A program made the position numbers and the translations under genes. From [Clostridium] aerotolerans DSM 5434 (GTDB lineage Bacteria > Bacillota > Clostridia > Lachnospirales > Lachnospiraceae), in assembly GCF_000687555.1 (NCBI RefSeq), contig NZ_JHWJ01000004.1, forward strand, positions 62,001-126,000: a stretch of DNA of 64,000 nt. The letters are read 5' to 3'. The notes under the pieces are model-generated. The model saw nothing but the letters and a program-made list of their open reading frames with translations, was not told the DNA's origin and did not search any database. Below, piece by piece: positions 3,463 through 54,019 of the stretch (position 1 is the first letter of the stretch; each line of letters opens with the position of its first letter).

Positions 3463-3476
3463 AAGAGAGTATTTTG

Positions 3477-3685
3477 TGAAAGGTGCCTGTGAAAATTCTC
3501 CGCAGGATAATAGGGAAAAGGGTGAGAATCCCTTACGGTCCCGCCGCTGTAAATGTGGAGCACAGTTCCATACATCACTGGGAAACTGGGAAGAGGAACT
3601 GCTGTGAGGATGCATGAGTCAGAAGACCTGCCTTTCATTTCGCTGCGCGCCGGTTACGAGCGATGACCGGTGCGGGGGATTTTTT
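3477..3685 (+). ncRNA. Cobalamin riboswitch with terminator expression platform
   Basis: The leader holds the conserved parts of the cobalamin aptamer in order: AATAGGGAA, GGGTGAGAATCCC, the B12 box ACGGTCCCGCCGCTGT and a late GAAGACCTGCC. The ends pair as P1 (TGAAAGG at 3477 with CCTTTCA at 3631-3637). A terminator hairpin follows (3646-3654 with 3666-3674, then a T run). In this family, B12 binding favours termination, so cbiMN would be off when cobalamin is plentiful. The 350-base gap between cbiO and cbiM is fully accounted for by promoter, riboswitch and terminator. Confidence 0.93.
3646..3685 (+). terminator. Riboswitch-controlled terminator upstream of cbiM
   Basis: CGCGCCGGT pairs with ACCGGTGCG (one G-T pair) around an 11-base loop and is followed by GGGGATTTTTT. 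It lies between the aptamer and cbiM, where an expression platform is expected. Confidence 0.85.
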
Positions 3686-10572: not shown

Positions 10573-10683
10573 TTATTTTTTAGGAATACAGGGCAGATAA
10601 ATTACGCGGTTGTTATGGTTTACATAAATAAGCGCCAATGCAGATGTGGAAGTGCCTACATTTACATCTGAAAATACAACCAT
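10573..10683 (-). CDS. Possible 36-residue protein at the end of the nonulosonic-acid operon
   Basis: An ATG at 10683 opens a 36-codon frame ending at TAA (10573-10575). It reads VVFSDVNVGTS, SALALIYVNH and VIYLPCIPKK, a beta-like hydrophobic pattern reminiscent of the ends of small surface proteins. The ribosome site is weak (GAATTAGGT). It could be a real small gene, the remnant of a longer gene, or chance. No other gene lies in the 228-base gap 10479-10706. Confidence 0.25.
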   Translation of the reverse strand: MVVFSDVNVGTSTSALALIYVNHNNRVIYLPCIPKK

Positions 10684-10706
10684 ACCTAATTCAATTTATT
10701 ATAATC

Positions 10707-11426
10707 TTATGTTTCATTTAGATGTTCAGGCACACCATTTTTTAGAAGAAGCTCCGCCAGATAAAACTCATACTCATCGTCAATATCAATGGAATGTAGT
10801 GGGTTCATAAAGTAAGGATAGGTGGTCCCGGCATAAAAGTTCTCGTGCTTTAAGTAAAATGGCACAGAGGTAAGATAGACAGCCCCATTCACCCGATATC
10901 CTGATGAGACATCCTGCCTTCTTATCTGTCTATCATGGAGAGATGGCATCACAATCTCACCAGATTTCTTAAGGGTCACAGCCAAATAACAGTTACAATC
11001 AAAGGGACATACGCTGACCATGGAATCTGCTCCTGTCTCAAAGTAACGTTTCACGCTCTCTCTTATATGCATTTCATTTCTCAAGGGAGACGTAGGCTGG
11101 AGCAGCATGATGTAATCATACGTCTTTCCCAGCCGTTCCATCTCTTTGATTCCATGAATGATCACGTCCTTTGTGGCAGCTTTATCCCCTGAAAGCCATG
11201 CAGGCCTTAAAAATGGGGCAGTTGCCCCCCATTGATTCGCAATATCCCTATACTGCTCCGAATCTGTAGAGACAACAATATCGTCAAAAATACCAGCATT
11301 TTTACAGGCCTTTATGGTATATGCCATGAGTGGCTTATGATTCAGCTCCTTGATGTTCTTATTGGGCAATCCCTTGGAACCACTTCTGGCTGGTATAAAT
11401 GCTAGAAACCGTTTGTTCTCATACAT
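10707..11426 (-). CDS. legF: CMP-nonulosonate cytidylyltransferase (NeuA/LegF family)
   Basis: This 239-residue enzyme activates a sialic-acid-like sugar with CTP to give the CMP-sugar used by glycosyltransferases. The motifs are FIPARSGSKGLPNKNIKEL at the N terminus, ISTDSE-like VVSTDSEQY, QPTSPLR and later SIDIDDEYEF. The family uses Mg2+ bound by the DIDD aspartates. An upstream TTG is in frame, but the ATG at 11426 has GGAG six bases before it and overlaps the legG stop (TAATG). It is the last large gene of the operon. Choice of legionaminate over neuraminate rests on the neighbours legB and legC. Confidence 0.88.
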   Translation of the reverse strand: MYENKRFLAFIPARSGSKGLPNKNIKELNHKPLMAYTIKACKNAGIFDDIVVSTDSEQYRDIANQWGATAPFLRPAWLSGDKAATKDVIIHGIKEMERLGKTYDYIMLLQPTSPLRNEMHIRESVKRYFETGADSMVSVCPFDCNCYLAVTLKKSGEIVMPSLHDRQIRRQDVSSGYRVNGAVYLTSVPFYLKHENFYAGTTYPYFMNPLHSIDIDDEYEFYLAELLLKNGVPEHLNET

Positions 11427-12589
11427 TACAAACTCCAATCAATATCATAAAATTCTTTCTCCAGTTCAATCCCATTTTGAAACGCCTGCTTTATTTCAGA
11501 AATTATTTTTCCGCTGGTACCCGGATATTCATAAGGATTATGGAGGGAGGAATTTACCCAGTCAACTTCCAATGCTTTCTGAACGGCCGATAGAATGCTG
11601 TCATAGGAATCATCACAATTTATCACAGAGTCTGCCATTACCCGCCCCATTTGTCTGGTACCGATGTTCACGGTTGGGACCTTAAGGCTGGGAGCCTCAA
11701 TAATTCCGCTGGATGAGTTTCCTATGACCACCTGACAGTGGCTCATAAGACTTAAATAACGAAGTGAGCCCAGAGACGTAAAAAAAGCAGCCCGTTCCGG
11801 GTGGCATTTTGCATAATCGGCAGCCAATTCATTGATTCGGCTTCCACCTGTATCTGAATTGCTTCCAGTAAATACTGCAAACAAACAGGGGAGAGAATCC
11901 AGGGCTTGAAAGAGTGGTTTTATTTGTTCCTCAACACTCGTTGTTTCAAGTGTGGCAGGGTGAAATGTGATCAGGGCAAGTTCAGATCCAAGGGAAAGGT
12001 TTAAGGACTGCTCCAGTTCCTTTATGGATAGGAAAGACAGCTCTTTCAGCCTTTCCACACCCAGAGCTCCAACGTGAAAGACTCTCTCCGGAGCTTCTCC
12101 CAGTTGTATCACCCGCTTCCTATATTCCATTGTACTGGTGAAATGAAGGTAGCTCATTTTGGTAATTCCATGCCTCATACAGTCATCATAGGCGCCCCTT
12201 GTCTGCTCGCCCCCATGAATATGAGCAATGGGAATCCGGCAAATGGCGGCAGCGCTTGCAGCGGTAAAGATCTCATAGCGGTCGCCTAAAAGCAGTATCA
12301 TATCCGGCTTTAACCTCTCATAAGCCTTAGAAATGCCAATGAGCTCAAGGCCCATGGATTTACAGATTCCATAGGAAGTGTCGCTGGCCAGATTCATTTC
12401 CACGGTTTCATCTATGGTTATCCCGTCCAGTTCCATGTCCCGGTAAGGGGAACCGAATCTGGAATCCATGTGAGCGCCGGTCACTACCATCTGAAGCTTT
12501 ATATAAGGATCGGCCATGGCTTTTCGAATGACTGGAGTCAATAGACCGTACTCCGCCCGGCTGCCTGTTACTACGCATAACCGCATCAT
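11426..12589 (-). CDS. legG: UDP/GDP-sugar 2-epimerase, hydrolysing (NeuC/LegG family)
   Basis: The 387-residue protein has the epimerase-2 fold. Key motifs are VTGSRAEYGLL, the HIHGGEQTRGAYDD region, LGDRYEIFTAA, and the C-terminal IGNSSSGIIEAPSLKVPTVNIG nucleotide-binding part. In the legionaminate pathway, LegG removes the nucleotide and epimerises C2 to give 2,4-diacetamido-trideoxymannose. The start ATG overlaps the end of the synthase gene by four bases. NeuC of sialic acid synthesis is the alternative; the gene set favours LegG. Confidence 0.88.
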   Translation of the reverse strand: MMRLCVVTGSRAEYGLLTPVIRKAMADPYIKLQMVVTGAHMDSRFGSPYRDMELDGITIDETVEMNLASDTSYGICKSMGLELIGISKAYERLKPDMILLLGDRYEIFTAASAAAICRIPIAHIHGGEQTRGAYDDCMRHGITKMSYLHFTSTMEYRKRVIQLGEAPERVFHVGALGVERLKELSFLSIKELEQSLNLSLGSELALITFHPATLETTSVEEQIKPLFQALDSLPCLFAVFTGSNSDTGGSRINELAADYAKCHPERAAFFTSLGSLRYLSLMSHCQVVIGNSSSGIIEAPSLKVPTVNIGTRQMGRVMADSVINCDDSYDSILSAVQKALEVDWVNSSLHNPYEYPGTSGKIISEIKQAFQNGIELEKEFYDIDWSL

Positions 12590-13581
12590 TTTATAATCCT
12601 CTCATCCATCTTATAATCCCTGTCAGAAGGCGTTCCAAGGAGGGCTTTAAGCCTCATGGGAGAGATTCCAGGGGAACAGCGTTTGGCGCACAGATTATCC
12701 ACGGTAAATGGCTCCCCTTTTTTTATGTCCCTGGAGGCCACCAGAAACTTTCTCACCCGGTCCCGGTTTTTACATTCTTCCTTCGATGGTTCCTTATATC
12801 CGTTTCCCAAAGCTATCTCAATGTTTCTTATGCTGTCGGTCATATGTCTAAATTCTTTCGGCTCCAGGCTCAGTCTGTGGTCTGGTCCAGGCATGGTCTT
12901 ATCAAGGGTCATGTGCTTTTCAATGACGCAGGCACCCAGGGCAGCAGCGGCAATTGCAACCTCGATTCCCATGGTATGGTCGGAGTATCCGATGCTTCTT
13001 GAAAATACCTGTTTCATATGGGACATGGCATTTAAGTTCACTTCTTCCATTGGGGTGGGATAAGCGCTGGTGCAGTGGAGCAGAGTGATATCCTGACCAC
13101 CCTCATCAAGAAGATCCAGTGCCTCCCCGATCTCTTCCATAGTAGACATACCGGTAGAGAGAATGATTGGCTTTTTTAAGGAAGCAGCTTTCTTTAAATA
13201 CCCGTAATTAGTAATTTCTCCAGAGGGGATTTTTATGATTCCAACTCCTAGCTGGTCCAGATATTCCATGCTTGTTTCATCAAATGGGGAAGATAAGAAC
13301 ATGATATTGCGGGAAGCGCAATAAAGAGAAAGTTCTTTGAAGCTGTCATAGGATAGCTCAAGTTCTTTAAGCATTTCATATTGGGAGAGACTTTTCCCTG
13401 TGTTCCGGTACTGATAATCTGCTTTTATTGCGTCCCTGACAGCCAAAAACTCGGTGCGGTAGGTCTGAAATTTCACCGCATCGGCGCCCGCTTCCCTTGC
13501 CGCATCCACCAGCCTTTTGGCTGTATCCAAGTCCCCATTATGGTTTACCCCTGCTTCAGCGATAATCATAACTCTGTTCAT
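12586..13581 (-). CDS. legI: Nonulosonate synthase (NeuB/LegI family)
   Basis: The 331-residue protein condenses a mannosamine-type sugar with phosphoenolpyruvate. The N-terminal TIM barrel has EAGVNHNGDLDTAKRL, KFQTYRTE, SSPFDETSMEYL, KIPSGEITN, LLHCTSAYPTP, YSDHTMGIEV and EKHMTLDKTMPGPDHRLSL. A C-terminal antifreeze-like SAF domain (about 275-331) starts with SRDIKKGEPFTVDNL. The frame extends to a TTG at 13590, but the ATG at 13581 has AAAGGAGG nine bases upstream. It overlaps the acetyltransferase gene by 26 bases. NeuB of sialic acid and PseI are alternatives; legB and legC nearby favour LegI. Confidence 0.9.
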   Translation of the reverse strand: MNRVMIIAEAGVNHNGDLDTAKRLVDAAREAGADAVKFQTYRTEFLAVRDAIKADYQYRNTGKSLSQYEMLKELELSYDSFKELSLYCASRNIMFLSSPFDETSMEYLDQLGVGIIKIPSGEITNYGYLKKAASLKKPIILSTGMSTMEEIGEALDLLDEGGQDITLLHCTSAYPTPMEEVNLNAMSHMKQVFSRSIGYSDHTMGIEVAIAAAALGACVIEKHMTLDKTMPGPDHRLSLEPKEFRHMTDSIRNIEIALGNGYKEPSKEECKNRDRVRKFLVASRDIKKGEPFTVDNLCAKRCSPGISPMRLKALLGTPSDRDYKMDERIIK

Positions 13582-14221
13582 AAACACCAACCTCCTTTGC
13601 AGGCCTTCCGTAAGCCAGAGTATGGGAAGAAATATTCCTTAATACGAGACTTCCGGCCCCAATCATGGCATTGCTTCCTATGGTGATATTTTGAATGACT
13701 GTAGTTCCGGCTCCAATGTGAGTATTTTCCCCTACGGACACATTGCCGCACAGAACGCAGCCAGGGGCGATGTGAACGAAGTCCCCGATGTTTGCGCCAT
13801 GTTCTATAATTGCTCCTGTGTTAATGATGCAGCCTTTACCAAGAACCGCCCCGGCCCCAAGGATAACACCCTTGCCAACATAGCTGCCTTCTCCCATTGA
13901 TACATCCTGAGATAGGACTGCACTTTTATCTATGATGTTAGGCAAAGCTAACCCCTTCTGCTTTAAGGTCTCATAGATCCTGATTCTTGGATGGGGGTCT
14001 CCCAGGCTTCCTACGGCGATGACACCGTAAGAGATTCCCTGATGGCAAAGGTCAGATAGGAGTTCATCGGTTCCCAGAACCGGAATGCCTGAAATGGATG
14101 TGCCTGCCTCAAGCGTTTGGTCCAGAATACCAATGATTTCGTATTCATTGGCAGAACGAATGGAATCAATGACGCTTTCTCCATGGCCGCCTCCACCAAT
14201 TAGTATCAGCTTTTTTTTCAT
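13556..14221 (-). CDS. NeuD/PglD-type sugar O- or N-acetyltransferase (probable LegH function)
   Basis: This 221-residue protein has an N-terminal nucleotide-like fold (KLILIGGGGHGESVIDSI) and a C-terminal left-handed beta-helix of hexapeptide repeats (VGKGVILGAGAVLGKGCIINTGAIIEHG is the start of the series, described here in parts: GKGVILGAG, INTGAIIEHG, GDFVHIAPG). The catalytic His lies in IIEHGANIGDFVHI. In a legionaminate cluster this family acetylates the C4 amine (LegH). Its ATG overlaps the upstream stop by four bases, showing co-translation. Confidence 0.85.
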   Translation of the reverse strand: MKKKLILIGGGGHGESVIDSIRSANEYEIIGILDQTLEAGTSISGIPVLGTDELLSDLCHQGISYGVIAVGSLGDPHPRIRIYETLKQKGLALPNIIDKSAVLSQDVSMGEGSYVGKGVILGAGAVLGKGCIINTGAIIEHGANIGDFVHIAPGCVLCGNVSVGENTHIGAGTTVIQNITIGSNAMIGAGSLVLRNISSHTLAYGRPAKEVGVYEQSYDYR

Positions 14222-15264
14222 AGCTTCATACGCTCCGCCATTTTTCTCATTTCACTGAATTCACCCATGTCAAGCCAGGTGCTGTCCATCACCGGATACA
14301 CACCAGCTTTCTTCCCGTTTTGCAGACAGAGGCGGATCAGATCCGGCATATCAAATGGGACTCCTTCCGGGAGATCATTTAATGTGCCTTTTTCCAGAAC
14401 GTATAGACCGGTGCTGACGAGAAATTCATAGCTGGGCTTTTCATTTAAGGCCTGTATGCAGCCTTCTTCATCCAGTGAGACCACGCCATAAGGAACTTCA
14501 TAATTTTTCATAGCAGTGACTACGGTGATCTGATTTTCATTTTTTATATGATGGTCCAGAAGTTTTTCGTAATTCACGTCCACTAATATATCGCAGTTGC
14601 TGACAAAGAAGCTGTCTGTGATTTTGTCTTTTAAAAGTGAGAGAGAGCCTGCGGTACCAAGTGGCTCCTTTTCTTCTATAAAGTTAAGATGATAACGGTC
14701 ATCATCGTTAAAATACGCTTTAATCAGCTCTTTTCGGTAGTTGACTGTGAGATAGAATTCCGTAAAACCGTAAGACATCATCTGATTCATGATTCGTTCC
14801 ACGATGGGGGTATCCCCAATGGGAATTAAGGGTTTTGGTATAATTTTAGTATAAGGATAGAGTCTGGAACCTTTTCCTCCTGCCATGATGACCACAGGAA
14901 CCTTTTTGCCCTCTGTTACCCTTTCCTCAGAGGAATTCAGCTCATTCCAGAATAAAATATCTACAACCTCCATGTGTTCATTTACAAGTGGAAGTCCTTC
15001 AATCTTTTTCTCTCTCATGATATCAAGGGCCAGGGGAGTTTCTGACCGTGTGATAACGATAGGAGAGGTGTTCATAATGCGGCTTACGGCCATGGATAGA
15101 TTTTCATTTTTTAGTATCCAGCGTCGGATGTCTCCGTCCGTAATTACCCCCACCAGCTTGTCGTTTCGAACTACCACCAGGAGTTTCTTAGCCGTTTCAT
15201 CTAACTGCCGGATTGCTGTTCTGATGGAATCATCAGGTGAAATTGAGAATTTCTTTACGTCCAT
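14218..15264 (-). CDS. CBS-domain sugar-1-phosphate nucleotidyltransferase (PtmE-like)
   Basis: The 348-residue protein has two CBS motifs in about the first 120 residues (SIRTAIRQLDE, KLVGVITDGDIRRWIL, VDILFWNEL). A nucleotidyltransferase domain follows, with MAGGKGSRLYPYTKIIPKPL, GDTPIVERI and DILVDVNY. The same CBS-transferase fusion is known as PtmE in Campylobacter, which makes GDP-glucosamine for legionaminic acid. I infer that role here. The frame runs up to a GTG overlapping legC, but AGAAGGAGG lies nine bases before the ATG at 15264, which is chosen. Confidence 0.83.
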   Translation of the reverse strand: MDVKKFSISPDDSIRTAIRQLDETAKKLLVVVRNDKLVGVITDGDIRRWILKNENLSMAVSRIMNTSPIVITRSETPLALDIMREKKIEGLPLVNEHMEVVDILFWNELNSSEERVTEGKKVPVVIMAGGKGSRLYPYTKIIPKPLIPIGDTPIVERIMNQMMSYGFTEFYLTVNYRKELIKAYFNDDDRYHLNFIEEKEPLGTAGSLSLLKDKITDSFFVSNCDILVDVNYEKLLDHHIKNENQITVVTAMKNYEVPYGVVSLDEEGCIQALNEKPSYEFLVSTGLYVLEKGTLNDLPEGVPFDMPDLIRLCLQNGKKAGVYPVMDSTWLDMGEFSEMRKMAERMKL

Positions 15265-15287
15265 GTAAGCCATCCTCCTTCTGGTAA

Positions 15288-16436
15288 TCACCCTTCATTC
15301 AGGGCCTTAACAATAAAAACCACGTCAGCTTCCTTAAGGTTAACGCTGCAAGGAAGATTGATCACATTGCTCTGGTAAAAGGGTGCTTTCTCAATATAAT
15401 ACGCCTGACAGTCCTCATACATGGTCTGGGTGTGATTTAGCTTCCAGATGGGTCTTGTTTCAATGCCGGATTCCCTTAACCTGGCCATAAGTGCATCCCG
15501 CCCTGATTTGTGGTCATTTAAGAGCAGGGAATAAAACCAATGGTTATTTCTGGCCTTTTCACAAAATGGAAGAAGTGTGACATCGTCTCTGTCTTTTAAT
15601 AAGCTCTTGTAATAAACGTAGTTCTTTCTCTTTTTTTCAATGTACTCTTCCAGACACTCCAGCTGTCCCACGCCCAGGGCTGCCTGAATGTTGGTCATAC
15701 GGTAGTTATAGCCGACTTCATGATGAACGTAGTAAAATGGATCATCCTTAGCCTGTGCGGATAAGTATACGGCCTTTTTTAGATCCTCCTCATTTCTGGC
15801 AGTGATCATACCGCCTCCGCCAGTGGTGATTATCTTATTGCCGTTAAAGGAATAAGCACCAAAATCTCCTATGGTGCCTGCAAACCTGCCCTTTAAGCTT
15901 CCTTCGGTGTATTTGGTGCCAAGTGCTTCCGTTGCATCTTCAATCAGTTTTAGATGGTACTCCTGGCACAAGCTTAGAAGGGTTTCCATATCAGCCATAT
16001 TGCCAAAGACATGAACAATGACAACAGCCTTTATGATCCGCCCTGTAGAGCGGTTTAAAAGGCCTTCCTGAGTTTTGGTACACTCTGTTTTTAGAAATCT
16101 CTCCAGCTTTTCCAAGTCCATATTCAGGGTATGGTCGCAGTCCATAAAGATGGGGTGTGCTCCTAAGTATGTCACAGGATTAACTGCGGCAATAAAGGTG
16201 AGAGTAGGAACGATGACCTCCTCACCCCTTTTAATGCCGGAAAGAAGCATAGCCAGGTGGAGGGCTGCCGTGCCGCTTTGTACAGCGGCAGTGTTTGGAA
16301 CCTTTAAGTAGTCTGCCATTTCCCTTTCAAAGCGGGTCACATAGCTGCCGGCGGTGGAGACCCAGCCGCTTGTGATGGCATCGTCCATATATTTCTTTTC
16401 ATTTCCTTTTAAAACAGGAACGGATAACGGTATCAT
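15288..16436 (-). CDS. legC: LegC-family PLP-dependent aminotransferase
   Basis: This 382-residue member of the DegT/DnrJ/EryC1 family transfers an amino group to C4 of the 4-keto sugar made by LegB. Motifs are SGWVSTAGSYV, the AVQSGTAALHLAML nucleotide-sugar/PLP region, DATEALG (Asp contacting PLP) and the Schiff-base lysine in YSFNGNKIITTGGGGM (about residue 185). The C-terminal YNYRMTNIQAALG is characteristic. It starts at ATG 16436 after AAGGGAG. It belongs to the same operon as legB upstream. Confidence 0.92.
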   Translation of the reverse strand: MIPLSVPVLKGNEKKYMDDAITSGWVSTAGSYVTRFEREMADYLKVPNTAAVQSGTAALHLAMLLSGIKRGEEVIVPTLTFIAAVNPVTYLGAHPIFMDCDHTLNMDLEKLERFLKTECTKTQEGLLNRSTGRIIKAVVIVHVFGNMADMETLLSLCQEYHLKLIEDATEALGTKYTEGSLKGRFAGTIGDFGAYSFNGNKIITTGGGGMITARNEEDLKKAVYLSAQAKDDPFYYVHHEVGYNYRMTNIQAALGVGQLECLEEYIEKKRKNYVYYKSLLKDRDDVTLLPFCEKARNNHWFYSLLLNDHKSGRDALMARLRESGIETRPIWKLNHTQTMYEDCQAYYIEKAPFYQSNVINLPCSVNLKEADVVFIVKALNEG

Positions 16437-16453
16437 ATGACTCCCTTCCTATG

Positions 16454-16487
16454 GGTCTAAACAATGTACTGGTCTAAACAATGTACT
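16454..16487. repeat. 17-base tandem duplication at the legB 3' end
   Basis: GGTCTAAACAATGTACT occurs twice in direct succession (16454-16470 and 16471-16487), followed by GGTCT. One copy contains the legB stop codon (16474-16476); the other lies just after it. This looks like a recent slippage duplication that leaves the protein end unchanged. Confidence 0.9.
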
Positions 16488-17454
16488 GGTCTGTCCGGAA
16501 ATGGTCCCCATTCTCTTTGATCCACTGAATGGTATTTTGAAGGCCAACGGATAGGGAATATTCCTGCTTCCATTGGGTGAGACGAGTCAGCTTTTCATTG
16601 GAGCCAAGAAGCCTTGTTACCTCACTCTTTTCTGGGCGGAGCCTTTGGTCCTCGCAAAGGATTCTGGATTCTGGACTAATCTGGCGTATGAGTTCCTCTG
16701 CCAGATCGCCGATGGAGATTTCTTTGCCGCTTGCTATGTTTATCTCTTCTCCCATGGTTTCGGGGGAGCGTTCTATTTCTATAAAGCCGTTTACCGTATC
16801 CTTTACATAATTAAAGTCTCTGGTAGGCGTAAGGCTGCCCAGACGAATCTCTTCTTTTCCGGCCAGAAGCTGGCTGATAATGGTTGGTATTACCGCTCTG
16901 GCAGATTGTCTGGGTCCGTAGGTATTAAAGGGACGGACAATGGTCACCGGCAGGGAAAAGCTGCGGTAAAAGGACAGAGCAAGCTGGTCTGCCCCTATTT
17001 TCGTGGCGGCATAGGGGGATTGGGCCTTTTTTGGGTGAGCTTCATCAATGGGAACATAGTCCGCACTTCCATAGACCTCTGAGGTTGAGGTGATGAGCAC
17101 CTTACTGGTTCCCAGGCTTTTGGCTGCCTGAAGGACATTTAAGGTTCCTTTTACATTGGTATCTACATAGGAATCGGGAGACTGATAGCTGTAGGGAATG
17201 GCAATGAGGGCTGCCAGATGAAAGACAGAATCAATACTGGAAAGACAGGCCCTAACCCCATTGGAGTCCCTGATATCTCCGCTTATAATCTCGATTTCAT
17301 TTCTTATAGAAGCTGGCAGGGTATCCAGCCAGCCATAGCTGTTAAAGGAGTTGTAATAAGCAAGTGCCCTGACTTCATACCCCTTTAGAACCAGCTCTTC
17401 GGTAAGATGGCTACCGATAAAACCATCGGCTCCGGTCACCAGCACCTTTTTCAT
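16474..17454 (-). CDS. legB: LegB-family NAD-dependent sugar 4,6-dehydratase
   Basis: The 326-residue short-chain dehydrogenase/epimerase binds NAD through VTGADGFIGSHL. It has the catalytic YAATK (Tyr and Lys, about residues 149-153), the STSEVYG strand and RPFNTYGPRQSARAVIP. LegB converts a nucleotide-GlcNAc to the 4-keto-6-deoxy sugar, the first step of legionaminate synthesis. The ATG overlaps the small upstream gene by four bases. Its last codons lie in a 17-base tandem repeat. Confidence 0.9.
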   Translation of the reverse strand: MKKVLVTGADGFIGSHLTEELVLKGYEVRALAYYNSFNSYGWLDTLPASIRNEIEIISGDIRDSNGVRACLSSIDSVFHLAALIAIPYSYQSPDSYVDTNVKGTLNVLQAAKSLGTSKVLITSTSEVYGSADYVPIDEAHPKKAQSPYAATKIGADQLALSFYRSFSLPVTIVRPFNTYGPRQSARAVIPTIISQLLAGKEEIRLGSLTPTRDFNYVKDTVNGFIEIERSPETMGEEINIASGKEISIGDLAEELIRQISPESRILCEDQRLRPEKSEVTRLLGSNEKLTRLTQWKQEYSLSVGLQNTIQWIKENGDHFRTDQYIV

Positions 17455-17702
17455 GGATTTCTCCCTTCTCCGTGGCTGTTATCAAATACCTTGACACGAT
17501 ACGTGCTCGTTCTGTCAGAAACGGCAAAGCAGAATTCTCCATGCCGGTTGGTCAGGGTATGGCCTAAATAAACGCTTGATAAGTCTTCTTCCTTCCGTTC
17601 CTCGTTAAACACAGGGACCAGCCGTTCCAGGATAACTACGGCTCCCACAACAGGGACGCGGTTGGTGTGCCGGACCAGGCCGCGAATGATTGCATGTGCC
17701 AT
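17451..17702 (-). CDS. Small carboxypeptidase-regulatory-like beta protein, paralogue 4
   Basis: This 83-residue protein shows a transthyretin/carboxypeptidase-regulatory-like pattern: IIRGLV start strand, PVVGAVVILE, LGHTLTNRHGEFCFAV and YRVKVFD. It has no signal peptide or membrane segment. Three other genes of this operon encode the same pattern. The role is unknown. Because it is encoded with sugar synthesis genes and a Maf-like transferase, it may be a surface structural protein and glycan acceptor. Confidence 0.7.
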   Translation of the reverse strand: MAHAIIRGLVRHTNRVPVVGAVVILERLVPVFNEERKEEDLSSVYLGHTLTNRHGEFCFAVSDRTSTYRVKVFDNSHGEGRNP

Positions 17703-17716
17703 AAGATTCCCCTTTC

Positions 17717-18016
17717 TTAAATGCTCTGGACCGGCTCAAACATATCAAGCTGATAATCAATCTGGGGATTTTTTAAAACAGAAACCGCAAATTCGCCAAA
17801 CTGGTTGGTTAAGACATAGCCGAGAAGCGTTTTCTCTTTTAAGATGTTGACCTCAGTGATGCGGACCACGGCACCTTCAATGGCCTGACATTGTGGGTTT
17901 AATACAGTACCCGTTAATAATACTTCACAGGAGGCTTCCATGGTGATCACCGCCTGAGCCACGTTACGATTATTAAATTTATCAGGTGAAATAATCAGTT
18001 CAGTATAACCGCTCAA
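17717..18016 (-). CDS. Small carboxypeptidase-regulatory-like beta protein, paralogue 3
   Basis: This 99-residue protein has LTGTVLNPQCQAIEGAVVRI, then LLGYVLTNQFGEFAVSVLK and a final YQLDMFEP. These match the pattern of its neighbours (gain of GTV, GA-V, LGY-TN-GEF, Y-L). The N-terminal part (ISPDKFNNRNVAQAVI) is distinct. It overlaps the preceding gene by four bases. Function is unknown. Confidence 0.7.
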   Translation of the reverse strand: MSGYTELIISPDKFNNRNVAQAVITMEASCEVLLTGTVLNPQCQAIEGAVVRITEVNILKEKTLLGYVLTNQFGEFAVSVLKNPQIDYQLDMFEPVQSI

Positions 18017-18339
18017 GAAGAGTCCTCCTTCTGGTTTGTTATGAGGGGAGCATAGACCGACAGCTCATACTTCATCTGCGGCTTTGCTTCAAGGGAAAAA
18101 AGATACTGCCCGGCCTCATCGGTCACGGCATAGCCAAGGACAAGACGTTCCTGGTTCCCTTCATCGATTTGAGTGAGCATAATGGAAGCACCGGCGCAGG
18201 GGGTCCCCTCCTCTGAATATACCGTTCCTTTTATGATCTGGTGATGATCCCGGCTTAGATGAAAGTTATAGTGATTTTCTCTCCACGGCAGAAGCTTGGA
18301 ACCCCGGATCGTAAATGTGTTCCTTTTGGGGCCGTCCAT
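18013..18339 (-). CDS. Small carboxypeptidase-regulatory-like beta protein, paralogue 2
   Basis: This 108-residue protein begins with a basic, aromatic region (PKRNTFTIRGSKLLPW) followed by IIKGTVYSEEGTPCAGASIML, LVLGYAVTDEAGQYLF and YELSVYAP. It is the same fold pattern as the genes at 17451, 17717 and 20325. It has no secretion signal. It starts at ATG 18339 after GAGGGGGGAG. Function is unknown. Confidence 0.7.
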   Translation of the reverse strand: MDGPKRNTFTIRGSKLLPWRENHYNFHLSRDHHQIIKGTVYSEEGTPCAGASIMLTQIDEGNQERLVLGYAVTDEAGQYLFSLEAKPQMKYELSVYAPLITNQKEDSS

Positions 18340-18363
18340 TGAAACTCCCCCCTCCTTTCACCC

Positions 18364-18528
18364 TTACTCGTTCTGGGTATAAACCGTCACGTTTAATTCC
18401 TGTAGGTTCTTGGTGTCCTCCCCGTGAATGATATTGCCTTCCTGCTCTTTGCCGTTTACAATCATTTTATTGATCTTTATTTCTTTGTATTTACCATCCA
18501 TGATCTCTTTCTTATTATCCTGTTCCAT
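18364..18528 (-). CDS. 54-residue hydrophilic protein
   Basis: The ATG at 18528 is preceded by AAAGAGGA and opens a 54-codon frame ending at TAA (18364-18366). It reads MEQDNKKEIMDGKYKEIK, KMIVNGKEQEGNII, ELNVTVYTQNE: very charged, with no Cys and no membrane segment. It fills the only gap between the Maf-like gene and the next small gene and has a proper ribosome site, so I take it as real. No family is recognised. Confidence 0.6.
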   Translation of the reverse strand: MEQDNKKEIMDGKYKEIKINKMIVNGKEQEGNIIHGEDTKNLQELNVTVYTQNE

Positions 18529-18557
18529 ACAAATCCTCTTTCCTTCCGGCAGATTTA

Positions 18558-20288
18558 TTAAACTATATGCGATTCATAAAATTCTGATACCGTAGAACGG
18601 GCAGTATCCCTGATCTCTGTTAAAATCTCATGGAGCTTTGAAAAGTACTCATAAAAGAAGTTGGCCTGATATTGAAGGTCAGAGGTCAGCCGTTCAAAAT
18701 CCTTTGCCGGCATGGAATTATGCTCTTCCTTTATTTCATAGAGAAATTCACTGTAATATCCCCCCAGGTAACTGGTGTAGGGGTGGTTTTCAAAGCTGTT
18801 TACCAGATGCAGGATATAGAGGATACGCTGAAGATCAATGTCATCCTCCTCGACTTCAACAAGAGATTTGGTCGCATTCTCCAGACGTATGGTCTCACAT
18901 AGCTCCAGGCCCTGATCCGTCTTAATGATAGAATCTTCTAAAAATTCCATCAGGGACTTAACAATATCCTTTGAATCCAGGGTCAGTTCATGACTTGGAA
19001 GAAATGGAACCTTCTTCTTTGAGAAGTCACCGTGACCTAGCATCTCATCAAGCTCCTTGTGAGGGGCCCCTTTTATTTCAGCTCCGTAGGAGCAGTTAAA
19101 GAAGCGGATAAAGGGATGGTCCTTGTATTGATTGATATAAAGCTCAAGGTTTTTTCTGAAATAATCAAGAGTCACCGTGGAGCCGACCCATTGACCGTTT
19201 ATGTCCTTTACCAGGGTCTGCGGTGCATAGTTTATGGTGCTGTCATAGAGAAATGTAGCACTGTCCGCATGATGCTTCTGGTTCGTATAAGCCAGATCCT
19301 GACCGATTAGTAAAATGGGAGAGCAGCCAAGCATAGCAGCGATGTCAATGCAGGCATGTGAAACAGAGCCGCCGCAGTAGACAGCCTTTAAGTGCTCCAT
19401 GCCTTTTACGGTGTGGGAAAGCAGCAGGGAGATAAAGATTTTTTCTCCCTTATACTGTTTCATAAGATACCGGTTGCTGTACTCATAAAAGGCAAGAGGC
19501 ACCGTAAGATCCAAATGCTCCTTCATCATATCAAAGTTGGCATCCACCGGATCCACCGATACGATGAGATCAGGGGTAATTCCATTTTTAATCAGGGCAT
19601 CTACGGTTCTGCTTCCCGTAATAATAAAGCAATCCTTTAACCTGTCTTTGTGATTTTTCATGTCTTCTATGTTCTTATCCAGGGAAGGCCCTCCCGATAC
19701 CACGATGGCTGGTACTCCCGCATTGGAAAACAGGTAGCGGTGGATGGGGGTGGACTGGTGGATCAGCTTCATGTTGGCAATCATATTTTTAATAAATATC
19801 TTTTTAAAGCGCCTGGCTAACGACACCTGGGAGGCAGTCTTTATAATCGTCCAGTCCAGATGCTCGATAAGCCTGTCATGTTCCTTTTTATACACGGTAC
19901 TGTAATTGCCAAAGGAAAAGAAGTAAATATTGTTAATGTTCTTTAGGTTAATATTTTCTTCAAAAATCTTCTTTGCCACATCTTCCTTATAGTACACCAG
20001 CTTTATGTTATTCCCCGGATCACTGGAGAAGCTGCGGTATATGGTGAGATTCGGTTCAAATATAATGACTTGATTTTTTGAGCTCAGCACCTTTTTTAAT
20101 TCCGGCAGATAATCGCCTGTATCAATTCCAAATAAAAAAATCAGGGAGTCAAATTTTAAATCACTTAGCGTATTTAAAAGATCCCTAATGTTGTTTCTGT
20201 AGCTGGTACTGTCTGCCAGTAAATGATACTGCCGGTCTTTTTTTATACGGTAGACGGAGTATCCATCTGAAGTTTTGACTTTTTTCAT
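18558..20288 (-). CDS. Maf-like (DUF115) nonulosonic-acid glycosyltransferase
   Basis: This 576-residue protein shows the MAF_flag10/DUF115 domain: FEPNLTIYRSF, AIVVSGGPSLDKNIEDM, IITGSRTVDALIKNGITPDLIVSVDP, YCGGSVSHACIDIAAMLG and LIGQDLAYT. Maf proteins transfer pseudaminic or legionaminic acid from the CMP-sugar to Ser/Thr of flagellin. No flagellin or flagellar gene is in the window, so the acceptor is unknown; the adjacent small proteins are candidates. The frame reaches an ATG at 20300, but the inner ATG at 20288 has GGAGG five bases upstream and is preferred. Confidence 0.82.
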   Translation of the reverse strand: MKKVKTSDGYSVYRIKKDRQYHLLADSTSYRNNIRDLLNTLSDLKFDSLIFLFGIDTGDYLPELKKVLSSKNQVIIFEPNLTIYRSFSSDPGNNIKLVYYKEDVAKKIFEENINLKNINNIYFFSFGNYSTVYKKEHDRLIEHLDWTIIKTASQVSLARRFKKIFIKNMIANMKLIHQSTPIHRYLFSNAGVPAIVVSGGPSLDKNIEDMKNHKDRLKDCFIITGSRTVDALIKNGITPDLIVSVDPVDANFDMMKEHLDLTVPLAFYEYSNRYLMKQYKGEKIFISLLLSHTVKGMEHLKAVYCGGSVSHACIDIAAMLGCSPILLIGQDLAYTNQKHHADSATFLYDSTINYAPQTLVKDINGQWVGSTVTLDYFRKNLELYINQYKDHPFIRFFNCSYGAEIKGAPHKELDEMLGHGDFSKKKVPFLPSHELTLDSKDIVKSLMEFLEDSIIKTDQGLELCETIRLENATKSLVEVEEDDIDLQRILYILHLVNSFENHPYTSYLGGYYSEFLYEIKEEHNSMPAKDFERLTSDLQYQANFFYEYFSKLHEILTEIRDTARSTVSEFYESHIV

Positions 20289-20324
20289 AGTATCCTCCAT
20301 AAAATGTCGCCTTTTTGGCTTTTT

Positions 20325-20612
20325 TCATATGGACGAAAATGCCCGAAGCTTATATTGTCTGCCAGGAATTCTGGGAAGAGAGAGTGCATAGGTCCCGTCT
20401 GGAAGGGTAAAGGTGAGTCCTAACCGGACCACTTCCCCAGGACTTTCAGGCTGATAGGATAGAATTTCAACCGCGGCATTGGAAAGAGGGATTCCCGATG
20501 GACTGTAAACGGTTCCCGTAAGAAGCAGTAAAGAACTGCCGGGAGCCACTGCATCAGCAGTCACAACTCCCAAACAGATGAGCTGACAGCCTGTAAAGCA
20601 TAAGTTTGACAA
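20325..20612 (-). CDS. Small carboxypeptidase-regulatory-like beta protein, paralogue 1
   Basis: This 95-residue protein starts with TTG at 20612, set by AAGGAGG eight bases before it. It has LLTGTVYSPSGIPLSNAAVEIL, RLGLTFTLPDGTYALSL and YKLRAFS, the same pattern as three other small proteins of the operon. The N-terminal part is hydrophobic with three Cys (CFTGCQLICLG). It may be disulfide-linked or membrane-near, but there is no classical signal peptide. Confidence 0.65.
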   Translation of the reverse strand: MSNLCFTGCQLICLGVVTADAVAPGSSLLLLTGTVYSPSGIPLSNAAVEILSYQPESPGEVVRLGLTFTLPDGTYALSLPRIPGRQYKLRAFSSI

Positions 20613-20671
20613 CGTTCCCCACCTCCTTAATCAGGGGTGTCCTTAAACCGTGACTGGACACCCCTAAGTGA

Positions 20672-20956
20672 TTACCTACTGTAAAATTTTAACCGAAGTA
20701 TGACGCCGGCTCTGGTTGTAATACCATAGTTTGCGTTAGCATCTGTAAATGTTACAAGATCTGGCTCTTCTGTGGTTAGTTTTGTGCTCTCCCAAATCGC
20801 AACAGCACCGCTCCTTAAAATGGTATTGCTAAAGACAGCAGTACCACGAAGCAACAAAAGCCCCCAGCTGGTTGTGGAAAGTTTTGAAACGATCACCTGT
20901 CCGGAATCAGCAACAGAGGCCAAAATAGTTTTCGCAATCGGTTTATAGTTAGCCAT
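20672..20956 (-). CDS. Unknown 94-residue protein, first gene of the glycan operon
   Basis: The protein reads as beta strands rich in Ser, Thr and Leu (SKLSTTSWGLLLLRG, FSNTILRSGAV, ESTKLTTEEPDLV, TRAGVILRLKFYSR). I do not recognise the family. There is no signal peptide, Cys or membrane helix. The high Ser/Thr content would suit O-glycosylation. It begins at ATG 20956 after GAGGGGGCG, about 40 bases downstream of a sigma-K-like promoter, so it should be the most strongly expressed gene of the operon, as expected for a structural component. Confidence 0.6.
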   Translation of the reverse strand: MANYKPIAKTILASVADSGQVIVSKLSTTSWGLLLLRGTAVFSNTILRSGAVAIWESTKLTTEEPDLVTFTDANANYGITTRAGVILRLKFYSR

Positions 20957-21001
20957 AAAAACGCCCCCTCAAATTCTCATTAGAAATACGTATTTCTATG
21001 T

Positions 21002-21028
21002 TATAGTATGTCTTGAATGAAATAGAGT
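21002..21028 (-). promoter_or_regulatory. Sigma-K-like sporulation promoter for the nonulosonic-acid/Maf operon
   Basis: On the minus strand AC (21028-21027), exactly 16 bases, then CATACTATA (21010-21002) match the sigma-K consensus AC-N16/17-CATANNNTA. The predicted start is near 20995, about 40 bases before the first gene. No convincing sigma-A promoter is visible in this gap. Sigma-E recognises a similar -10, so sigma-E cannot be excluded. Confidence 0.55.
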
Positions 21029-21078
21029 GACTAGGCAGTCCAAAGCCTGCGTTCAGGCGATTTAAGGAGAAATAAAGT

Positions 21079-21120
21079 AAAAAATACGGCAGGCATGAGA
21101 ACGTTCATGCCTGCCGTATT
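21079..21120 (-). terminator. Strong intrinsic terminator after the 55-residue membrane protein gene
   Basis: A perfect 16-base stem (21083-21098 with 21105-21120) with a 6-base loop is followed on the minus strand by TTTTTT. It ends the small membrane protein transcript just upstream of the sigma-K-like promoter region. Confidence 0.9.
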
Positions 21121-51496: not shown

Positions 51497-54019
51497 ATGC
51501 TTGCAAAAGGGTTTACAGAGCCAACGGAGCGTATAAAAAAACTGAAAAGAGCTATTGTGGATGCAATTCCATATGTTGAATCAGAACGAGCTGTTTTAGT
51601 AACAGAGTCTTATAAAGAGACGGAAGGGCTGTCTCCGATTATGAGGAGAGCAAGGGCAGCGGAGAAGATTTTTAGAAGTCTTCCAATCACCATTCATGAC
51701 AATGAACTGATTGTAGGTGCAGTTACAAAGAATCTTCGCTCCACCGAAATCTGCCCTGAATTTTCCTATGATTGGGTTGAGAAAGAATTTGATACCATGG
51801 CAACCAGAATCGCGGACCCATTCCAGATTCCAAAGGAGACTGCAGCAGAGTTAAAGGAAGCATTTAAGTACTGGGATGGAAAGACTACCAGTGCCTTGGC
51901 AGATTCCTATATGTCTCAGGAGACAAAAGACTGCATCAGCAATGGTGTATTTACTGTAGGAAATTATTTCTATGGCGGCGTAGGACACGTATGCGTGGAT
52001 TATGGCAAAGTATTAAAAATTGGATTTACCGGCATTATCCGTCAGGTCATGGAAGCAATGGCAAAGCTTGATACCAGTGATCCTGATTATATTAAGAAGA
52101 AAAATTTCTATGAAGCTCTTATCATTACATATACGGCAGCCACTCAGTTCGCACATCGTTATGCAGAAAAAGCAAGAGAGATGGCAGCGGTTTGTCTCGA
52201 TGCAGCAAGAAAAGCAGAACTGCTTCAGATTGCAGCAAACTGTGACAAGGTTCCGGAACATGGTGCGACTAACTTTTATGAGGCATGCCAGTCCTTCTGG
52301 TTTGTACAGATTCTGCTTCAGATTGAAGCCAATGGACATTCCATCTCACCAGGACGTTTTGATCAGTACATGAATCCCTATCTTGCCATGGATAAAGGCA
52401 TTTCCCATGAGCTTGCACAGGAATTGGTGGACTGTGTATGGGTCAAGTTAAATGATATCAATAAGACCAGAGATGAAGTTTCTGCCCAGGCATTTGCTGG
52501 ATACGCGGTATTCCAGAACTTAATTGTTGGCGGTCAGACAGAAGACGGACTGGATGCAACCAATGAAATGTCTTATATGTGTATGGAAGCAGTTGCACAT
52601 GTAAAACTCCCTGCACCATCATTCTCCATTCGTGTGCATCAGAACACACCGGACGAATTCCTTTACCGTGCTTGTGAGCTTACCCGTTTAGGCCTTGGTG
52701 TTCCTGCTATGTATAACGACGAAGTAATTATTCCTGCCCTTTGCAACAGAGGCGTATCCTTAGCAGATGCAAGAAATTACTGTATCATCGGTTGTGTGGA
52801 GCCACAGTGCCCTCATAAAACAGAAGGATGGCACGATGCTGCATTCTTTAATATTGCAAAGGTCCTTGAAATTACTCTGAATAACGGAAAAGTTGGGGAT
52901 AAGCAGTTAGGTCCTGTAACAGGAGATATTACCTCCTTCACCAATTTAGAGCAGCTTTTGGAGGCCTACAAAAAGCAGATGGAGTATTTTGTTTACCATC
53001 TTGCAGAGGCAGATAACTGTGTGGATTATGCCCATGCAGAACGTGCACCTCTTCCATTCTTATCTGCTTTGGTAGATGACTGTATCGGTCGTGGTAAGAG
53101 TGTTCAGGAAGGCGGAGCAATCTATAACTTTACCGGACCTCAGGCGTTTGGAGTTGCTGATGCAGGAGATTCCCTTTGTGCCATCAAGAAGCACGTGTTT
53201 GAAAATAAAGAGATTACCATGGAGCAGTTAAAAGAAGCTCTTGATCATAACTTTGGCAACTGCTGTGACAATACTTGTTCTGCAACAGAAGTCACGGATG
53301 AAGACAGAATTTATGAAGCAGTAAAGAGAATTTTAAGCAATAACGGTTCCATCAATCTTGCTGATTTACAGGCACAGTTGAGCAAGCCTCAAAAAGAAGT
53401 TTCAGGCAGCAAAGAGGACTATGCGCAGATTAAGAGAATTCTTGAGAATACGCCATGGTTTGGTAATGATGAAGACGAAGTGGATATGATCGCAAGACGC
53501 TGCGGACAGATTTATTCTTATGAAGTTGAGAAATACAAAAACCCAAGAGGTGGTCAGTTCCAGGCAGGATGCTATCCCGTATCCGCCAACGTATTGTTTG
53601 GTAAGGATGTAGGAGCCCTTCCTGACGGTAGACTGGCTAAGACACCTCTTGCAGACGGCGTATCCCCAAGACAGGGAAAGGATACCAATGGTCCCACTGC
53701 GGCAGCCATGTCTGTTGCTAAACTGGATCACGCAAACTATTCAAACGGAACCTTATATAACCAGAAATTCCTTCCATCAGCCCTTGCTGGAGATGAGGGT
53801 TTAAAGCATTTTGCTTCCATTGTACGCTCTTACTTTGATCACAAGGGAATGCATGTACAGTTTAACGTAATCGACCGTGATACTCTTCTTGCGGCTCAGA
53901 AGGACCCGGATCAGTATAAGGATCTTGTAGTCCGAGTCGCTGGCTACAGTGCGCAGTTTACCGTGCTCGCAAAAGAAGTTCAGGATGACATTATAAGCCG
54001 TACCGAGCAGACGTTATAA
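51497..54019 (+). CDS. Glycyl radical diol dehydratase (B12-independent propanediol/glycerol dehydratase)
   Basis: This 840-residue glycyl radical enzyme has the thiyl Cys433 in GCVEPQ, Glu435, Asp447 (GWHD), His164 and His281-Ser282 (GHSISPGRF). These are the same residues and numbers as in Clostridium butyricum glycerol dehydratase. The radical Gly816 lies in VRVAGYSAQF. The Asp at +14 from the Cys argues against choline lyase (CutC). An insertion of about 50 residues relative to glycerol dehydratase lies between Cys433 and Gly816 (near 590-645), as in Roseburia-type propanediol dehydratase. The substrate is inferred as 1,2-propanediol, with glycerol possible. It should act inside the shell, though no N-terminal targeting helix is obvious. 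Confidence 0.9.
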   Translation: MLAKGFTEPTERIKKLKRAIVDAIPYVESERAVLVTESYKETEGLSPIMRRARAAEKIFRSLPITIHDNELIVGAVTKNLRSTEICPEFSYDWVEKEFDTMATRIADPFQIPKETAAELKEAFKYWDGKTTSALADSYMSQETKDCISNGVFTVGNYFYGGVGHVCVDYGKVLKIGFTGIIRQVMEAMAKLDTSDPDYIKKKNFYEALIITYTAATQFAHRYAEKAREMAAVCLDAARKAELLQIAANCDKVPEHGATNFYEACQSFWFVQILLQIEANGHSISPGRFDQYMNPYLAMDKGISHELAQELVDCVWVKLNDINKTRDEVSAQAFAGYAVFQNLIVGGQTEDGLDATNEMSYMCMEAVAHVKLPAPSFSIRVHQNTPDEFLYRACELTRLGLGVPAMYNDEVIIPALCNRGVSLADARNYCIIGCVEPQCPHKTEGWHDAAFFNIAKVLEITLNNGKVGDKQLGPVTGDITSFTNLEQLLEAYKKQMEYFVYHLAEADNCVDYAHAERAPLPFLSALVDDCIGRGKSVQEGGAIYNFTGPQAFGVADAGDSLCAIKKHVFENKEITMEQLKEALDHNFGNCCDNTCSATEVTDEDRIYEAVKRILSNNGSINLADLQAQLSKPQKEVSGSKEDYAQIKRILENTPWFGNDEDEVDMIARRCGQIYSYEVEKYKNPRGGQFQAGCYPVSANVLFGKDVGALPDGRLAKTPLADGVSPRQGKDTNGPTAAAMSVAKLDHANYSNGTLYNQKFLPSALAGDEGLKHFASIVRSYFDHKGMHVQFNVIDRDTLLAAQKDPDQYKDLVVRVAGYSAQFTVLAKEVQDDIISRTEQTL

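Follow-up and report, generated by a model that had tools for sequence, protein, structure and literature searches.

A conserved Maf-type glycosyltransferase operon behind a sigma-K-type promoter in [Clostridium] aerotolerans, a candidate spore-surface glycosylation system

Layout of the operon and its products

We analysed a stretch of 64,000 nucleotides (nt) from the 4.73 Mb genome (G000) of [Clostridium] aerotolerans DSM 5434, here called the window (C4:62001-126000). An operon on its minus strand, running from position 20956 down to 10707, joins a Maf-type glycosyltransferase gene to a nonulosonic acid pathway and a set of very small proteins. Open reading frame calls and Pfam and TIGR profiles give the gene order SP94, CNA1, maf, a 54-codon gene, CNA2, CNA3, CNA4, legB, legC, ptmE-like, neuD-like, neuB, neuC and legF-like. 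A first-pass annotation had listed a legB, legC, ptmE-like, neuD-like, legI, legG and legF set with a Maf-like gene, and profile matches recover all of these at that place and on that strand; the five small genes and the 54-codon gene (18364-18528) were absent from its list.

Maf (18558..20300, minus strand, as are all operon genes) has 580 amino acids (aa) and matches PF01973 at 156.2 bits (cut-off 34.6), the sole match to this family in the host genome at an expect value (E) of 0.001. Its predicted structure, compared using VIA-align to realign the best chains from Foldseek, matches 5MU5 over the full length, beyond the shorter archaeal MptE/HPPK fold, and the sequence profile gives a weak match to 5MU5 (E 0.00079). 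Besides this Maf-fold protein, the Pfam and TIGR scans recognised no glycosyltransferase in the operon, and neither a polymerase nor a flippase.

The sugar-pathway genes encode a 4,6-dehydratase (legB, 16474..17454; TIGR04180, 498.5 bits, cut-off 475), an aminotransferase (legC, 15288..16436; TIGR04181, 480.8 bits, cut-off 420), a ptmE-like nucleotidyltransferase with a CBS domain (14218..15291; PF00483 and PF00571 over cut-off), a neuD-like sugar acetyltransferase likely to fill the LegH role (13556..14221; TIGR03570, 217.6 bits, cut-off 160.8), a nonulosonic acid synthase (neuB/legI, 12586..13590; TIGR03569, 463.4 bits, cut-off 399.65), a 2-epimerase (neuC/legG, 11426..12589; TIGR03568, 436.5 bits, cut-off 235.9) and a legF-like synthetase for nonulosonic acids linked to cytidine monophosphate (CMP) (10707..11438; PF02348 over cut-off, the PseF model under its own). 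The gene set for the predicted product, CMP-legionaminic acid, is complete (legB, legC, legH/neuD, legG, legI and legF, with legF assigned by PF02348 alone). The genome's one further PF03102 match besides neuB/legI is partial (33.4 bits).

The first gene product, SP94 (20672..20956; 94 aa), contains 22% Ser+Thr and no Cys, and is a candidate glycan acceptor. SP94 alone has no Pfam match; its profile aligns with that of CNA2 (89% probability, E 2.3e-6). An AlphaFold model shows a first third (the first 33 residues) of low confidence followed by five predicted strands, with a mean predicted local distance difference test score of 56, and this poor model had no match in the PDB at E 0.001 (best 0.15). 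The other small proteins are CarboxypepD_reg-like by PF13620 (cut-off 32.3 bits), with scores just below the cut-off for CNA2 (18013..18339; 108 aa, 31.0 bits) and below it for CNA1 (20325..20612; 95 aa, 21.5 bits, co-conserved), CNA3 (17717..18016; 99 aa, 18.9 bits) and CNA4 (17451..17702; 83 aa, 17.6 bits); of the 15 CNA2 family members aligned, 12 have a PF13620 match at E<=0.01. None of the six small proteins contains an LPXTG motif, no classical signal peptide was seen among them on inspection by eye, and neither DUF3992 nor DUF4183 was among the Pfam matches of five of them (E up to 10, at the sequence level).

The 54-aa protein encoded after maf (18364..18528) has similar small counterparts 3' of maf in most loci examined and might be a helper of Maf. 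In loci L110, L111, L117, L118 and L119 the counterpart extends further at the C terminus, and this tail, with many basic and hydrophobic residues, could attach to a membrane or to a partner.

A conserved sigma-K-type promoter and a palindrome

The promoter proposed in the first-pass annotation, AC-N16-CATACTATA, is exact at 21002-21028 and conserved in 23/23 loci; extended to TCAC-N16-CATACTATA it spans 21002..21030 on the minus strand, with the -35 TCAC at 21027-21030 and the -10 at 21002-21010. Because the bare -10 motif CATANNNTA is about as common in the window as chance predicts (33 copies, against 30 expected), one match proves little, and we dropped the single match as evidence and took conservation in its place. 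TCAC, a spacer of exactly 16 nt, CATA[CT][TG]ATA, 4 nt and then AGAAATACGTATTTC are all found in 23/23 upstream regions, 22 from the host's genus and one from genome G144 (of 24, L083 had too little sequence), and most spacer columns vary. Outside the genus, AC-N15-17-CATANNNTA with the -10 at 52-57 nt before SP94 is present in 6/9 loci (L111, L112, L113, L114, L116 and L119), or in 5/8 new ones, as L112 is the G144 locus again. Shuffles give an expectation of 0.005 for the interval -60 to -50, which was chosen after the hits were seen, and 0.09 for anywhere in 150 nt.

In C. difficile the -35 element tells sigma-E (ATA) from sigma-K (AC) promoters (PMC3789822), and for appendage genes of C. 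taeniosporum the quoted consensus reads a/cACa/c-N16-CATAN3TA (PMC5749712). The operon promoter agrees with the latter at AC, spacing and -10. In spoIVA, which is under sigma-E in B. subtilis and served as an internal control, ATA occupies precisely this -35 position in 24/24 rows, and the sigma-K pattern occurs in 0/24.

Genome-wide, TCAC-N15-17-CATANNATA occurs at 18 sites, as compared with 8 for the reversed pattern. Six other sites of the CATANNATA type precede four Cys/Asn-rich proteins (L179, L181, L187 and L194), a DUF6774 protein (L186) and a rubrerythrin-like protein (L184); the remaining ones lie before an ABC-type ATPase-like frame (L192) or a 343-residue frame (L189), have no clear gene, or fall inside longer frames. 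The promoters at L179, L181 and L187 share CTTGTCT right after TCAC, possibly a regulator site.

A perfect palindrome of 16 base pairs, AGAAATACGTATTTCT (20982..20997), absent from the first-pass annotation, lies 4 nt past the -10, close to where the transcript is expected to start. Its first 15 positions are found in 23/23 loci and all 16 in 21/23, and inverted repeats of other sequence occupy the same place after the -10 in L114, L117, L118 and L119. We rejected it as a regulon operator: it is single-copy in the genome at 0-1 mismatch, and the 7 sites at <=2 mismatches equal the number for the reversed control. A conserved 5'-terminal RNA hairpin was likewise rejected, as 0/17 leaders folded with a clear advantage over dinucleotide shuffles (lowest p 0.05). 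Farther upstream, a terminator-like hairpin of 16 pairs (21083..21120, minus strand) separates the operon from the upstream genes; such sites are at chance in the region (11 found, 11.2 in shuffles), and this stem is the longest listed.

Conservation of the unit and its distance from flagellin

Operon-type Maf is present in 23/25 genus genomes, and the 13 queried operon genes are in the same order and strand in 21/24 loci (tblastn, with the 54-codon gene left out). The exceptions are L066 and L042, which are cut by contig ends, and L083, which has no match for legB or CNA4. One assembly (CP070896.1; L081/L121) gives split tblastn matches for maf, ptmE, neuB, neuC and legF, more likely from sequencing error than from decay. 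The closest named relatives of Maf are in Clostridium sp. 12(A) (95%), and in a metagenome-assembled genome (MAG) labelled Hungatella (UBA7603) and Lacrimispora algidixylanolytica (78% each), which places the host most likely among the Lacrimispora-type Lachnospiraceae. Maf relatives at E 0.001 occur in 45 of 200 family genomes, the window's own counted; among the 200, only G144 (55%) and G170 (47%) have a Maf of the close type, the next best being at 28%. In a tree of 53 Mafs, built without L102 and L121, a branch with support 100/100 sets the 24 of operon type apart from the rest, with long branches flagged and the sister group unsure. No Maf relatives were found in phage records, nor in viral contigs with close-relative patterns. 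Three genus members having an operon-type Maf (G216, G221 and G200) carry extra MptE-like genes 8-13 kb from flagellin.

A Maf-alignment scan of named genomes gave 25 loci, with hosts that include Lachnotalea glycerini, [Clostridium] fimetarium, C. beijerinckii HUN142, C. gasigenes, Romboutsia lituseburensis and R. sedimentorum. We examined the neighbourhoods of 10; the other 15 are Lacrimispora-type and largely from the same genomes as the genus tblastn set, and two of the 10 are loci already counted under other labels (L112 = L082, L122 = L083). Near maf outside the genus, SP94 and at least one CNA-like protein are found in 10/10 loci and legB in 6/10, and the PseC, PseI and PseG models exceed their cut-offs in R. 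lituseburensis (L118), as do PseB and PseC in R. sedimentorum (L119). In L103 the contig begins just before maf, which puts SP94 out of view. The sugar genes therefore vary, and the transferase and the small proteins make up the constant core.

The first-pass annotation had stated that no flagellar gene is present. This holds for the window, in which no flagellin, FlgL, FliD or FlgK pieces were found, but not for the genome, which has three flagellin-family genes outside the window; the closest shares the operon's contig, at a distance of about 54 kb. Flagellin lies near Maf at 0/25 loci of the operon clade, with flanks of up to 10 kb (four on contigs of <10 kb), as opposed to 19/27 comparison Maf loci with flanks of about 1.5 kb, the latter taken from the best-scoring family genomes, which are part of the 45 with a match. 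G144 has, besides the operon-type Maf, two other Mafs that are both near flagellin. In the host itself, the flagellin at C4:18650 sits within a glycan island outside the window (L086, L096; G000:C4 about 17000-42000). The island encodes a GT2-TPR transferase, a GT9 heptosyltransferase-like protein, a PfkB/cytidylyltransferase (HldE-like) and further glycosyltransferase-like proteins, which suggests a glycosylation chemistry different from that of the operon.

A link to spores is seen in two clusters, R. sedimentorum (L119) and a Peptostreptococcaceae MAG (L117), where the protein encoded directly before CNA1 (273 aa) has matches to both SipL/SPOCS and DUF11. The SPOCS match is over cut-off in L119 (8314-9135; 24.8 against 23.6), with DUF11 just under, and the reverse holds in L117 (8313-9134; DUF11 25.2 against 24.6, SPOCS just under). 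The SPOCS domain is known from the coat-anchoring protein SipL. DUF11 is present in clostridial appendage clusters (PMC5749712, PMC11952670).

A candidate role in spore-surface glycosylation

The proposal of spore-surface glycosylation made in the first-pass annotation gains support from the conserved promoter, the contrast in flagellin proximity, the arrangement in G144, the separate flagellin island and the SPOCS neighbours. From these sequence comparisons we consider it probable that the operon serves the O-glycosylation of proteins specifically in sporulation. Sigma-K polymerase would transcribe it late in sporulation in the mother cell, as the conserved promoter suggests, and LegB, LegC, the NeuD-like protein, LegG, LegI and the LegF-like and PtmE-like proteins, judged by their enzyme families, would make CMP-legionaminic acid or a close relative. 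Maf, by its linkage, may then move the sugar onto Ser/Thr of the small beta-sandwich-like proteins in the mother-cell cytoplasm, with SP94 as the first acceptor candidate, and these proteins would be assembled onto the forespore surface as part of an outer coat, exosporium or appendage; flagellin would be handled by the different island. The lack of a classical signal peptide fits assembly from the mother-cell cytoplasm. Because that cytoplasm surrounds the forespore, no secretion step would be needed, which suits cytoplasmic action by Maf.

Parts of this scheme have precedents. In B. subtilis, genes under sigma-K supply the spore surface with legionaminic acid, and spore-surface sugars affect spore adhesion and hydrophilicity (PMC7439481). 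The spsA-L/spsM genes described in that source share with the operon CMP-legionaminic acid, sigma-K promoters, the mother cell and the spore surface, all predicted here. Compared by description, however, sps is a UDP-linked pathway (SpsM/C/D/G/E/F), whereas here one operon holds a LegB/LegC/NeuC-type set, Maf and candidate acceptors. The PF01973 core and co-encoded nonulosonic acid genes are shared with Maf flagellin glycosyltransferases (5MU5; CbMaf of C. botulinum, PMC11339370; Clostridium islands, PMC13317340), as is the full-length fold with 5MU5; unlike these, the operon Maf forms its own clade, has no flagellin found nearby, lies behind a sigma-K-type promoter and keeps constant small beta-sandwich-like partners. 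CbMaf takes Neu5Ac as a substrate and can act on a sequence grafted onto a beta-sandwich protein (PMC11339370). The C. taeniosporum P29a/GP85 appendage cluster also has surface-protein genes behind sigma-K-type promoters (PMC5749712), clostridial spore appendage clusters share DUF11 proteins (here in L117/L119), and F-ENA clusters share putative O-glycans, carried by F-ENA-4 (PMC11952670). The operon's small proteins differ from the ENA systems in having neither a DUF4183 nor a DUF3992 match by Pfam, and an appendage is a candidate role here.

Several observations weigh against a sporulation role. In dpaA, which is sigma-K-dependent in B. subtilis, AC-N15-17-CATANNNTA was found in 0/25 rows (two of them, L130 and L141, used an unsuitable start), and the exact operon promoter is missing from L117 and L120 (one -10 base off each) and from L118 (none). 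The Cys/Asn-rich proteins behind other such promoters resemble coat or exosporium proteins only in composition, and Pfam named no coat family for those scanned. The low-confidence model of SP94 leaves its beta-sandwich fold as a suggestion, and the examined stretches of L117 and L119 yielded no nonulosonic acid synthase. Genomes G210 and G212 have spoIVA and flagellin without Maf, so Maf is accessory to both sporulation and flagella. Finally, flagellin is present in 25/25 genus genomes and in 13/13 host records reached via the loci (10 of them outside the genus), with no non-motile host found among them, and the operon Maf is the host genome's only one.

These last points would also be expected if a relocated Maf/legionaminic island served ordinary flagellin glycosylation in vegetative cells: Maf and Leg genes are classically flagellar, and the host has flagellins, like every host tested, and no second Maf. 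We nevertheless regard this as unlikely given the flagellin counts at clade and comparison loci, the GT2/GT9/HldE-like island beside one flagellin, the promoter type, the two flagellin-linked Mafs of G144, and the flagellin without an operon Maf in G210 and G212.

Sporulation-specific expression could also be combined with a different acceptor, such that, as in B. subtilis sps, the nonulosonic acid enters a spore polysaccharide or crust glycan, with the small proteins serving as carriers or scaffolds. The B. subtilis system gives this some appeal, as its sigma-K sps genes put legionaminic acid on the spore surface and the excerpted description identifies neither transferase nor acceptor (PMC7439481). 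The Maf fold of the operon's sole recognised glycosyltransferase and the lack of a recognised polymerase or flippase argue the other way, and we think it rather unlikely. CarboxypepD_reg-like domains, to which Pfam assigns the small proteins, are common in surface proteins, so a vegetative surface structure made of small beta-sandwich-like proteins might be the target; with no LPXTG motif, no signal peptide seen by eye, a sigma-K-type promoter and a SPOCS neighbour in two clusters, this seems very unlikely.

Beyond protein O-glycosylation during sporulation, we offer as a tentative speculation that a Maf subfamily moved from flagella to sporulation, that the tiny beta-sandwich proteins polymerise into a glycosylated spore layer or fibre, for which the first 33 residues of the SP94 model could be a connector, and that lineages swapped the sugar module, which is of the legionaminic type in Lachnospiraceae and Clostridium and has pseudaminic-type genes in Romboutsia. 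A spore job would be unexpected for an enzyme family known from the decoration of flagella, and we found no report of Maf in spores in the open-licence PMC literature, among the matches listed. If Maf does serve spores, a transferase and candidate acceptors would be named for spore nonulosonic acids, and the operon is small enough for testing in Escherichia coli.

Elsewhere in the window no tRNA was found. A cobalamin riboswitch (RF00174, 110.6 bits) at 3464-3649 is the sole match at Rfam gathering scores, and a glycyl radical enzyme, PFL-like with a glycine radical domain, is encoded at 51497-54019.

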